IMG/VR virus record: IMGVR_UViG_3300033986_000042
Coordinates: 1-25,135 of that record
DNA length: 25,135 bases
From: a virus
Direction: 5' to 3' (one strand)
Positions 2,594 to 13,544 of the stretch are shown one piece after another. The stretch's first letter is position 1. Each line of letters opens with the position of its first letter. The notes below the pieces were generated by a model. The model saw nothing but the letters and a program-made list of their open reading frames with translations, made no database searches and was not told the DNA's origin. The translations under genes and the position numbers were made by a program.

Positions 2594-3027
2594 TACTTCA
2601 ATTCCTCCTTCTGGGTAAGATTTTCCATGAACTCAATAGCTTCAGGCGCCATAACGAAGTTAATATTAACGTCGAATAAGAATTGAAAAACCCCTGATTC
2701 GTCTTTCCTGGCCGTTTGGCCGGTCAGGTAAAGTCGGCGCGTTTTATTAGCGCTTTCTTCGACGTCAAGGGTTTCGAAATTGTCGTACATGGTATCGGCC
2801 CAATCATTAAAGGCCATATTGTCGTCAGACTTTAAGAAATAAAGGACCTCAATCTGACAGGAACGCCTCCTTCTCCGGTCCAGTTTCTTTTCCTGGTTTG
2901 TTTCGATAACCCCAACAAAGAAGTTTCCGTCGGCGCCTTTAGGAATTTTATCAACAAATACATTTCGATCCGGCCAGATTTCAGATAATTTCGAAGCAAT
3001 GGCTTCCAGGATTTTATTAACGGTCAT
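2593..3027 (-). CDS. Tail terminator / tail completion protein, DUF6838-like
   Basis: A 144-residue protein placed between the gp10-like gene and the sheath gene, where the tail terminator that caps the tube is usually found. It begins MTVNKILEAIASKLSEIWPD and contains VFVDKIPKGADGNFFVGVIE and RSCQIEVLYFL, a pattern I associate with DUF6838 proteins of Firmicute contractile phages. An amphipathic first helix followed by strands fits the tail terminator fold. The ATG at 3027 has a GGAGG site (cggaggtaataaaacATG on the coding strand). The function is inferred from position and family resemblance. Confidence 0.7.
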   Translation of the reverse strand: MTVNKILEAIASKLSEIWPDRNVFVDKIPKGADGNFFVGVIETNQEKKLDRRRRRSCQIEVLYFLKSDDNMAFNDWADTMYDNFETLDVEESANKTRRLYLTGQTARKDESGVFQFLFDVNINFVMAPEAIEFMENLTQKEELK

Positions 3028-3043
3028 GTTTTATTACCTCCGT

Positions 3044-3586
3044 TTATCCGGAACCACGCGGGGATAACCTTTCCTGAAGAATCTGGTCAATCTTACGGGT
3101 TAGGCGGGCGTTCTGGGTGTCTTTAGTCCGCCGAATAGCCCTTAAAAGGGTAAAATGCCCGCGTACATAGCCGCCGTAAGGTCCGACGTACATTCCGCCT
3201 TCCGGATCGTTCTTCTGATAGACGAAAACATGGCCGCTCCAATGTCCAGGGACGAAGTGACTTCTGAAGCCATATTCAAGGGGCTTCGCATAGTCCAGGT
3301 TATTATAAACGTCAATCCTATAACGCCTTCCGGACCGTTGCGGCCTGCTTCCGTCGTGATCATTGTTATTTTGGTGGGTCAAGGCTTTATTTCCGGCGTG
3401 GAAGTTGTTCTGATAATCACCGGTGTTCACTATATCGGGGACGTCATTTTTACAGATAAGTTTTGCCTGTTTTACTGCATAGACGCCTTCACCGATAACC
3501 AGTTCTTCCATGATGTCCGGAACTTCGTCCCTTAACTGTTCAAGCTGTTTTTGAAGGTTAATTAAGCCTTTATTGTCCACACTCAC
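3044..3586 (-). CDS. HK97 gp10-like / XkdI-like head-tail protein
   Basis: A 180-residue protein with an N-terminal coiled helix (LINLQKQLEQLRDEVPDIME), then a strand domain with NTGDYQNNFHAG, YNNLDYAKPLEYGFRSHFVP and a basic C-terminus. The small helix plus the YAKPLEYG element (A-x-x-x-E-Y-G) is the hallmark of the HK97 gp10 family, which acts at the head-tail interface, often as neck or tail completion protein. Start is GTG at 3586 within a GTGA overlap with the stop of the preceding head closure gene, which suggests coupled translation. It is somewhat longer than the usual 120-150 residues because of the HWSGHVFVYQKNDPEGG insertion. Confidence 0.78.
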   Translation of the reverse strand: MSVDNKGLINLQKQLEQLRDEVPDIMEELVIGEGVYAVKQAKLICKNDVPDIVNTGDYQNNFHAGNKALTHQNNNDHDGSRPQRSGRRYRIDVYNNLDYAKPLEYGFRSHFVPGHWSGHVFVYQKNDPEGGMYVGPYGGYVRGHFTLLRAIRRTKDTQNARLTRKIDQILQERLSPRGSG

Positions 3587-3969
3587 GCCAGATCACCGTC
3601 CTTGACCCTTACTTCCTGGTGTGTTGCATAAACATTCGGCCGTCCGACTACCTCGAAGTTATAAATGATCGTGCTGTCTGGGTTATCCCTTCCGAACCGT
3701 TTAAGCGCAATTTTATCCCCAGGAAGGATCGAAAGGGAAGGGGGAAAGAAGATAATGGCGTCGTAGTCAATTTTATTTTGTGCTTGCATTTGCTGGCTTT
3801 TGTCAGAACCTGAATGCACAAGCGTGCAAATGCTATCAATATAAACGTCTTCGGGAACGTGCTTCGAAATATTGTTTATCTTCTGAAGCGTCGTTCTTGA
3901 AACAGTGGCTGTGTCTTCATAGGTTCGTTCTATAGCCATGCGTTCAGCGGCAGGGTTACCGAATCCCAT
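3583..3969 (-). CDS. Head closure protein, XkdH-like
   Basis: A 128-residue protein following the connector gene. It holds MAIERTYEDTATVSRTT near the start, then a strand-rich part with DAIIFFPPSLSILPGDKIAL and a YNFEVVGRPNVYATHQEVRV end. The order (early Tyr/Glu strand, the IFFP...GDKI loop, and the final strands) matches the head closure (Hc1, SPP1 gp16-like) group in PBSX-like phages. Such proteins form the ring that seals the connector after packaging. The ATG at 3969 has a strong extended ribosome site GGTGGTGATC. The middle (HSGSDKSQQMQAQNKIDYD) carries a Gln-rich turn. Confidence 0.75.
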   Translation of the reverse strand: MGFGNPAAERMAIERTYEDTATVSRTTLQKINNISKHVPEDVYIDSICTLVHSGSDKSQQMQAQNKIDYDAIIFFPPSLSILPGDKIALKRFGRDNPDSTIIYNFEVVGRPNVYATHQEVRVKDGDLA

Positions 3970-11770: not shown

Positions 11771-12715
11771 TTATTTGCCTTTTAAGGGCTTCGTTTTTGC
11801 TCGGTAATATATTTGTCGTCCTCGGTTGTTTTCGTCTCTCCTGTGGCGTCCTGTGCGCCCAGGATTGAAAATATTTCTGTGCTTATACCTGTGCTTTACG
11901 GTTATCAAATAAGTTTCCCTGACCAATTCCAGAAGCGCCCCTGATAACTGGTTAATCTGCTGGATTTCGTTTATCATGCTTTGGGTCAATCCTCCGGACC
12001 GCTTCATCTGTTCAATGGCTTCCAGACACCTTTCGCCCTTGTTGTAGTATGAAGTAACACCCAGGGCCTGACATATCTTCGAAAGAACCCTGTCGGCCCG
12101 TTCTTCGTCCTTTTCGATATAGTCCAGGCGTTCGGCCTTTCGCCGTAGTTCATACATTTCGCTTTCAAGTTTCCGGCTTACCAAGCGTCCGATTTCCCGC
12201 ATATTTGCCTTATCTTCCAGGTACATTTTGCAAAGTTCAAGGCGTTCGTTCGGTAATAGCCTTTCATGGCGTGGATAGTTCTTTTCCGCCCTGTGTAGCG
12301 CTCCAATGTATGTAAACATCAGATATTTGAACATTTCGACGGGCGGTTCTATATCACGCCAGGGCGCCTTTTTAATGGTCCTGATTCCGCCTTTCGAATT
12401 CATAACCACCAGGCCGCAAACGTCGGGTATTTCCTCAACGTCGCAAACGCCAGGCGCAACGGCAAAATAAAGCTGGTTGCACATTGGAAGATAAGCGCGC
12501 CACTTTTCATCACGAAGGAAGTCTGACCGGCTGACCTTTATTTCGTAACCGGTGATCCCGAAGCGTGTCCAGGATATTTTTATCGCCAGCGCGTCGATCT
12601 TGCTATGGTGCGCCACTGTTTGCGTCGGACCGTTCTTAACCTCCGTAAAAAACATATCTTCCTTATGTCGCTTCGCCAGGGCCTTTGTTATATCCCTGGC
12701 CGTTATTTTCTGCAT
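11771..12715 (-). CDS. MmcB-like PD-(D/E)XK protein
   Basis: A 314-residue protein whose N-terminal part resembles MmcB-family DNA repair proteins: HSKIDALAIKISW with D41, then GYEIKVSRSDFLRDEKW with E58 and K60, and NQLYFAVAPG. This is the D...ExK layout of a PD-(D/E)XK nuclease-like fold. The C-terminal half is helical with a coiled coil (SRKLESEMYELRRKAERLDY) and a basic tail (NPGRTGRHRRDENNRGRQ). I place the start at ATG 12715, preceded by GGTGGT seven bases away, rather than a frame opening further upstream that lacks a ribosome site. It overlaps the end of the methyltransferase gene. It may process DNA ends or act with the neighbouring methylase; that is inferred. Confidence 0.7.
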   Translation of the reverse strand: MQKITARDITKALAKRHKEDMFFTEVKNGPTQTVAHHSKIDALAIKISWTRFGITGYEIKVSRSDFLRDEKWRAYLPMCNQLYFAVAPGVCDVEEIPDVCGLVVMNSKGGIRTIKKAPWRDIEPPVEMFKYLMFTYIGALHRAEKNYPRHERLLPNERLELCKMYLEDKANMREIGRLVSRKLESEMYELRRKAERLDYIEKDEERADRVLSKICQALGVTSYYNKGERCLEAIEQMKRSGGLTQSMINEIQQINQLSGALLELVRETYLITVKHRYKHRNIFNPGRTGRHRRDENNRGRQIYYRAKTKPLKGK

Positions 12716-13278
12716 ATATAACACCACCTTCGATTTCGTCGCCCCATGCGTCCCAACCAGGCGCCGCATTTCTGGCGAACAGTTCTATCATAGTACCCCC
12801 CCCCGCATAGCTGGACGATCCTATCGCGGACAACGGCCGGCTTTTCGCTGTGTCTTCCGACAGGTTCGTCTATTATGCTATGGACTGCTTTAGAAACGCG
12901 TTTTGGCCGTCCTTTTGTTGCAAGAAGACAGACTTCGGCGTTTGCTCTGGTCCAGCTTCCCAGACCCCAAAACCAGCCAGGGGATTTTTTATTCCTCTTT
13001 ACCCATACAAACGCCGCGGTCTTATACTTGAAACCCCAACGACGGATTGTTTCCAGGCCGATTTCAAGGTTAGGAAATGTCACCCATAGAAACAGAATGC
13101 AGTTTTCGGCCGCTATGTCCTGGACAGGAAGGTTATATATTTCTTCTGGCTTCATGGTCTTATAGTGCTTCGCGGCCGGACCATTTCCGGTCCCGTCATA
13201 AAGCCTATAAGACCAGGGCGGGTCCGCGTAAATAACATCATATTTCTTCTGCGGGAACGGGATCATGTGCTTACACAT
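12703..13278 (-). CDS. MT-A70 family adenine DNA methyltransferase, C-terminus shifted at a G9 tract
   Basis: The product has the DPPW catalytic motif at residues 19-22 (VIYADPPWSY), then NCILFLWVTFPNLEIGLETI and KYKTAAFVWVKRNKKSPGWF, the conserved blocks of MT-A70 phage methylases (N6-adenine; the fold also occurs in RNA methylases). At codon 159 the frame enters a run of nine Gs and continues with an unlike sequence to a stop at 12703. With eight Gs it would read TMIELFARNAAPGWDAWGDE and end at 12663, which is the family's normal C-terminus (ELFAR...PGWD.WG). So the gene is either shifted by a real insertion, switchable by slippage, or misread in sequencing. ATG at 13278 has AGGA close by. 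Likely role: protect phage DNA from host restriction or mark it. Confidence 0.85.
   Translation of the reverse strand: MCKHMIPFPQKKYDVIYADPPWSYRLYDGTGNGPAAKHYKTMKPEEIYNLPVQDIAAENCILFLWVTFPNLEIGLETIRRWGFKYKTAAFVWVKRNKKSPGWFWGLGSWTRANAEVCLLATKGRPKRVSKAVHSIIDEPVGRHSEKPAVVRDRIVQLCGGGYYDRTVRQKCGAWLGRMGRRNRRWCYICRK
12796..12804. repeat. G9/C9 homopolymer tract in methyltransferase gene
   Basis: Nine C on the plus strand, hence nine G in the coding strand. Loss of one G restores the conserved end of the MT-A70 protein (204 residues instead of 191). I noticed no longer G/C run in the window. Confidence 0.95.
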
Positions 13279-13544
13279 CTTTCCTGGGCGGCTCTGGCCG
13301 CCATGATCTCCATTGACCGAATAAGGGTATATTCTGAAAATGCCATTTCGCGGACTGTGTCGGCCGTTAGCAGGACCAGGTATCCGTCGTCGTAACCGTC
13401 TTCACCATACTTCCGGCCTTCGCGCTCATTTGCCAGGTCCAGTTTACGGCGTGCGTATTTTTCGGCCTTTTGGAAGAAGACGGGACATATTTCAGTCCCG
13501 ACTTCTTTTTCGACCCTGGCTTTAAGTTCAGAAGTCGTTATCAT
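13263..13544 (-). CDS. Conserved phage protein of unknown function, 93 residues
   Basis: I do not recognise a named family. The protein is helical and charged: MITTSELKARVEKEVGTEIC, then FFQKAEKYARRKLDLANERE, an acidic DGYDDGYLVLL turn and AFSEYTLIRSMEIMAARAAQ. No membrane segment or metal motif is seen. It has a good ribosome site (GGAGG nine bases before ATG 13544), overlaps the DUF6273 gene by 17 bases at its start and the methyltransferase gene by 16 bases at its end, so it is a true operon member. Its place between the resolvase group and the methylase suggests an accessory role in DNA metabolism, which is only a guess. Confidence 0.75.
   Translation of the reverse strand: MITTSELKARVEKEVGTEICPVFFQKAEKYARRKLDLANEREGRKYGEDGYDDGYLVLLTADTVREMAFSEYTLIRSMEIMAARAAQERCVST

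Follow-up and report, generated by a model that had tools for sequence, protein, structure and literature searches.

Why does the adenine methyltransferase gene of a gut phage leave its reading frame at a run of nine Gs, just ahead of its conserved C-terminus? The window analysed here, the whole stretch of 25,135 bases, is a linear and incomplete IMG/VR fragment from a temperate tailed phage of the gut. It carries genes for a tail sheath, terminase, portal, integrase, repressor-like regulator and endolysin, and the MT-A70 methyltransferase gene is placed in a replication and recombination block with RusA-like, DnaC-like, DnaD-like, Erf-like and exonuclease genes. Searches with blastn gave, at best, only ~70% identity across 12% of the query against phage records and zero matches against plasmids. 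The genes scanned in this incomplete fragment include no recognisable restriction enzyme, and the methyltransferase therefore looks solitary.

A G9 tract divides the MT-A70 gene between two reading frames

The initial annotation had placed a run of nine Gs at 12796–12804, where the MT-A70 gene leaves the frame of its conserved C-terminus. Reading of the ORF on the minus strand confirmed exactly nine Gs, within the following features:

12796–12804, minus strand: G9 homopolymer, the proposed slippage switch (exact count; with eight Gs the gene halves share a frame)
12703–13278, minus strand: MT-A70 DNA methyltransferase ORF in the present (off) frame, 191 aa (Pfam MT-A70, 6.5e-21; phrog_359, 5.1e-63)
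12663–12795, minus strand: out-of-frame remainder with the conserved C-terminus TMIELFARNAAPGWDAWGDE..., stop at 12663 (phrog_359, 2.7e-8; METTL3 C-terminus alignment)
11771–12715, minus strand: downstream gene for an MmcB-like domain protein (Pfam PF06319, 8.4e-10), whose start overlaps the methyltransferase end in both frames
13263–13544, minus strand: upstream ORF, function unassigned, whose stop and the likely methyltransferase start overlap as ATGA

The 191-aa ORF extends from the ATG at 13278 to the stop at 12703, reads ...RIVQLCGGGYYDRTVRQKCGAWLGRMGRRNRRWCYICRK* and gives a protein ending in QLCGGGYYDRTVRQKCGAWLGRMGRRNRRWCYICRK. With one G fewer, the gene reads ...GGGTMIELFARNAAPGWDAWGDE... 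and the protein end begins TMIELFARNAAPGWDAWGDE..., continuing to the stop at 12663. As had been suggested, eight Gs restore the conserved frame, on the evidence of this translation and of the out-of-frame C-terminal piece, which by itself matches the phrog_359 DNA methyltransferase profile. The run had been assigned to codon 159, but the true start is probably the ATG at 13266, since this overlaps the upstream stop and gives the MIPFP start that relatives have; the run then begins near codon 155.

In profile searches, the N-terminal ORF matched PF05063 (MT-A70) above the cut-off as well as phrog_359, and the catalytic DPPW motif of MT-A70 is present as YADPPW. The gene is a member of the MT-A70 family (PF05063/phrog_359), with which it shares the fold, the DPPW motif and the conserved IELFAR...GWD.WGNE C-terminus of phage enzymes, and this allele encodes a truncated product. 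The repeat lies within the reading frame, and a change in its length alters the product: the SAM-binding C-terminal end is out of frame with the rest of the gene in the window's copy and in frame in 16 tract-bearing relatives. The lost segment can be aligned to the ends of human METTL3 (E 3.7e-17; IELFAR...GWD.WGDE versus IELFGR...NWITLGNQ) and of 7f4r, a further MT-a70 family protein of solved structure. SAM is contacted in METTL3 by D377, I378, D395, F534, R536, H538, N539, N549 and Q550 (PMC10932547), and six of these nine residues fall within the segment aligned to the lost end; neither SAM binding nor activity is therefore expected of the off form.

The G9 tract is the sole G/C run of at least seven in the 25 kb window. 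A first-order Markov estimate gives an expectation of ~0.19 runs of at least nine per window; chance alone could give one such run, and the case for its significance is comparative.

Tract length differs between close relatives

A pattern scan for at least seven Gs directly ahead of the coded IELFA motif returned 34 loci from IMG/VR and at least 80 from GTDB species genomes; most of the 80 listed matches, on genome contigs, were chance matches in other genes, and only those with the MT-A70 profile upstream were retained. Many of the scanned loci are MT-A70 genes with G7–G11 at the site of the window's tract, and in relatives overall the G run at this site ranges from 6 to 11. With the exception of phage nd4, all tract-bearing copies come from metagenome assemblies or MAGs. 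Unlike the window's gene, 79 high-scoring, mostly environmental phage MT-A70 relatives from a profile search have a longest G run of 2–5 at the site, indicating that Gly-Gly coding does not force a long tract. The MT-A70 tract is rare and patchy: the pattern was found in 2 of 391 genomes in a search of the class around one carrier and in 1 of 58 in a search of the family of another.

The nearest relative (L002, ~97% protein identity) has G7 and is also off; its locus is 91.8% identical to the window over 400 bp upstream and identical over 120 bp downstream, indel-free outside the tract. In a series of copies of one sister gene, for which only G9 is in frame, L035 (G8), L080 (G7) and L052 (G11) are all off and 95.5–98.5% identical over 400 bp upstream. 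L003 (G9), which is 79–80% identical upstream and 94–100% identical downstream, is on, and other indels are absent from the 400 bp upstream and 67–120 bp downstream of this series. A further pair, L023 (G8, on) and L102 (G9, off), shows zero amino acid differences across the 111 codons compared; L049 is on with G8, and L092 off with G10. A G8 (on) copy within the window's own close lineage was not found among the matches listed. The suggestion that the run might be a site of phase variation, to be sought in the tract lengths of related phages, is supported by lengths of 7, 8, 9 and 11 and of 7 and 9 between close copies whose flanks have gained no indels. Zero relatives share the 191-residue end of the window's protein, and the nearest carries G7, not G8.

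Frame breaks occur at G runs and not at A/T runs

One alternative, named as the main rival in the initial annotation, is that the homopolymer was misread or misassembled, with a true length of G8 and an intact gene. Homopolymers are error-prone and the contigs are metagenomic, and a single off-by-one base would account for the window taken alone. However, in a profile-based test of 162 near-full-length distinct genes, a set that leans toward in-frame genes through the ranking of a part of it by full-length score and in which L027, off on direct reading, was entered as in frame, a frame break was seen in 15 of the 34 genes that carry at least seven Gs, in none of the 23 that carry A/T runs of at least eight and in one of the 105 that carry no such run (G versus A/T, Fisher p 1e-4). 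The A/T runs, of 8–10 bases, come from the same gene family and collections. Moreover, one series spans lengths from 7 to 11, too broad for single-base errors, and flank-identical copies from separate assemblies share their tract length (L016/L032, G10; L017/L022/L127, G7; L023/L031, G8; L034/L046, G7). We thus consider assembly error unlikely and give the error explanation as a whole a low probability, a G-specific error being possible as the control runs are A/T and not G runs outside methyltransferases. An ORF-only homopolymer control was noisy at gene ends and was dropped in favour of the profile-based one. Family samples from the profile searches consist mainly of tract-less environmental phages, and their ranking by full-length score biases them toward in-frame genes; a tract-blind pattern sample was used instead, in which the tract-less genes were all in frame and five of the seven to eight tract-bearing genes were off (Fisher p ~0.0006–0.0009).

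The 37 MT-A70 genes with a tract divide into 21 that are off and 16 that are on, a slight excess of off copies that arises partly because the search for at least seven Gs selects for tracts. On the tree of these genes, there are at least 13 on/off changes. G runs are slippery, and a second alternative is recoding at the level of expression, with slippage of RNA polymerase or the ribosome yielding some full-length enzyme from every allele, so that tract length would be tuned and not switched. The off state is common and would be more tolerable if some full-length protein persisted. Against this, the off lengths of close copies fall both below and above the in-frame one (G7 and G9 where G8 is in frame; G7, G8 and G11 where G9 is) and in-frame, full-length versions are common, which leaves recoding, like error, with a low probability. 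A fixed-direction programmed ribosomal frameshift was ruled out by the off copies on both sides of the in-frame length and by the common in-frame alleles. Leaky transcriptional slippage in addition to phase variation is possible.

Decay of a methyltransferase gene no longer needed, with the frameshift as a step of its loss, would fit the presence of a frameshift in both the window and L002 but is highly improbable in view of a dN/dS of 0.036 between these two off genes (31 synonymous and 5 non-synonymous differences over 150 codons), the compared flanks without further indel, the conserved motif that off genes retain in their out-of-frame C-terminus, and the repeated on/off alternations. The ratio indicates that the gene has not decayed and is under strong purifying selection though often off; in other pairs, dN/dS was 0 to 0.32, the window/L003 pair being excluded as misregistered.

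Length variation between close copies, repeated switching, purifying selection while off and A/T runs that are never shifted together support phase variation. On this comparative evidence, the G9 run is likely to be a simple-sequence-repeat slippage switch that turns a solitary phage adenine methyltransferase on and off.

A second tract site in MT-A70 genes

In phage nd4 (L213, OR777945), an MT-A70 gene at 3001–3643 is split by a G7 run; the deposited annotation gives two ORFs, a hypothetical protein and a 'MunI-like protein', and misses the single gene. The break lies in the N-terminal third, after LPVN, at a point where family members are without such residues. This tract is shared by L318 (G8) and L302 (G10), and all three copies are off, nine Gs being in frame. 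As none of the three has a tract at the first site, the polyG tract arose at least two times in the MT-A70 family.

Other runs were noted in MT-A70 genes. At L154:2355, G10 lies in frame at a further site (CLLAVRGGG), and at L301:9168, G8 lies close to the C-terminal tail of a gene that is intact otherwise, so that only the last residues are altered.

PolyG tracts in other methyltransferase genes (other METHYLTRANSFERASES)

Next to MT-A70, the C5-cytosine methyltransferase gene (PF00145) contains three to five G7–G10 runs in four records:

L023, 3500–5300: C5-cytosine methyltransferase gene with polyG runs
L028, 1019–2860: the same
L297, 6061–7850: the same
L045, 4113–6100, minus strand: the same

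At matching positions, the tract lengths differ; after TGGGCACC, they are G8, G10 and G9 in L023, L028 and L297, respectively. Several of the C5 runs are out of frame, and they seem to be located centrally, between the catalytic and C-terminal motifs. In L154 (record 3300020042_009266), G8 and G10 occur at 1437 and 1554 in an upstream gene that is similar to the repeat-rich portion of C5 methyltransferases.

A D12-class adenine methyltransferase (PF02086 for L023) has, at one position, G9 in L023, G13 in L048, G8 in L297 and G7 in L307, with tracts near the N-terminus:

L023, 1800: D12-class gene tract
L048, 5752: D12-class gene tract, C13 as read
L297, 4367 and 4445: D12-class gene tracts
L307, 7598 and 7676: D12-class gene tracts

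The second run in L297 and L307 lies 78 bp upstream and appears tied to a duplicated start region.

By manual count in 14 whole records, which were picked for their MT-A70 tract and several of which are related, ~14 of 23 G runs of at least eight outside MT-A70 lie in methyltransferase genes; the rest are at gene ends, intergenic, on the opposite strand or unassigned. This concentration of polyG in methyltransferase genes is suggestive. Several runs were recorded beside these. Downstream of MT-A70, another adenine methyltransferase-like gene, with a DPPY motif, carries an in-frame G8 at L221:3560 (equivalent to L020:1347). Other G/C runs of at least eight in L321, L323, L324 and L326 are intergenic or fall in the final codons of a small protein that may be holin-like, where a change in length would affect only the tail or spacing. 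At L297:8158–8186, C15 followed directly by G14 at the contig end is probably an assembly artefact.

We give about even weight to the reading that, in a gut phage group, separate polyG switches control several DNA-modification genes: MT-A70 through two or more sites, the D12-class gene, and the C5 gene through its three to five tracts. Every virion or lysogen would then have one of several methylation patterns, as a phage counterpart of the phasevarion.

Discussion

In the mechanism that we propose, the G run would gain or lose Gs while DNA replicates, as is established for slippage of the replicating polymerase at Campylobacter polyG tracts (PMC10877375), and the change would be reversible. 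Eight Gs (or eight plus or minus three) would give the complete enzyme; other lengths would cost the last ~25 conserved residues, the SAM-binding end, and should leave the enzyme inactive. The sequenced copy is off, and a phage population or its lysogens would be a mixture of methylating and non-methylating variants. In lysogens, switching could also change host expression; prophage-encoded PamA alters host expression in S. aureus and is not described there as phase-variable (PMC13076061). The most likely benefit would be bet-hedging, with some variants escaping host nucleases that act on unmethylated DNA and others those that act on methylated DNA.

The original study of polyG switching in Fletchervirus phages reportedly noted such tracts in many genera of phages as well. 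PolyG phase variation is known in the receptor-binding proteins of Campylobacter Fletchervirus phages (Sorensen et al. 2021, Cell Rep 35:109214, as reported in PMC11959909 and cited in PMC10877375), and a 2025 review terms it 'an exceptional case' (PMC11959909). In both cases, a G run lies within a phage reading frame, and changes in its length switch, or here would switch, a protein on or off and yield mixed phage populations. The Fletchervirus tracts, however, act on receptor-binding proteins and the host uses the same trick, whereas those described here lie in DNA methyltransferases of gut phages or prophages, from Clostridia MAGs and metagenomes.

Phase-variable methyltransferases are well known in bacteria. 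Examples are a Campylobacter type IIG enzyme (PMC4889913) and an H. pylori polyG methyltransferase (PMC12003011). As in bacterial phasevarions, homopolymer slippage would here switch a DNA methyltransferase; the bacterial systems are restriction-modification genes, whereas the present ones are solitary phage genes. An open-literature search found no phage-borne phase-variable methyltransferase, and a gut phage methylation survey leaves phase variation unmentioned (PMC10477858).

The counter-restriction enzymes of a phage are usually taken to be a fixed set. If the switch operates as proposed, a single phage stock would consist of virions of differing methylation, which would change the reading of host range, restriction tests and phage methylomes, and host genes could be switched in lysogens. 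Automatic annotation masks such a switch by calling off copies truncated genes, as with the two ORFs of nd4, and the switch would explain the broken look of such phage genes in metagenomes.
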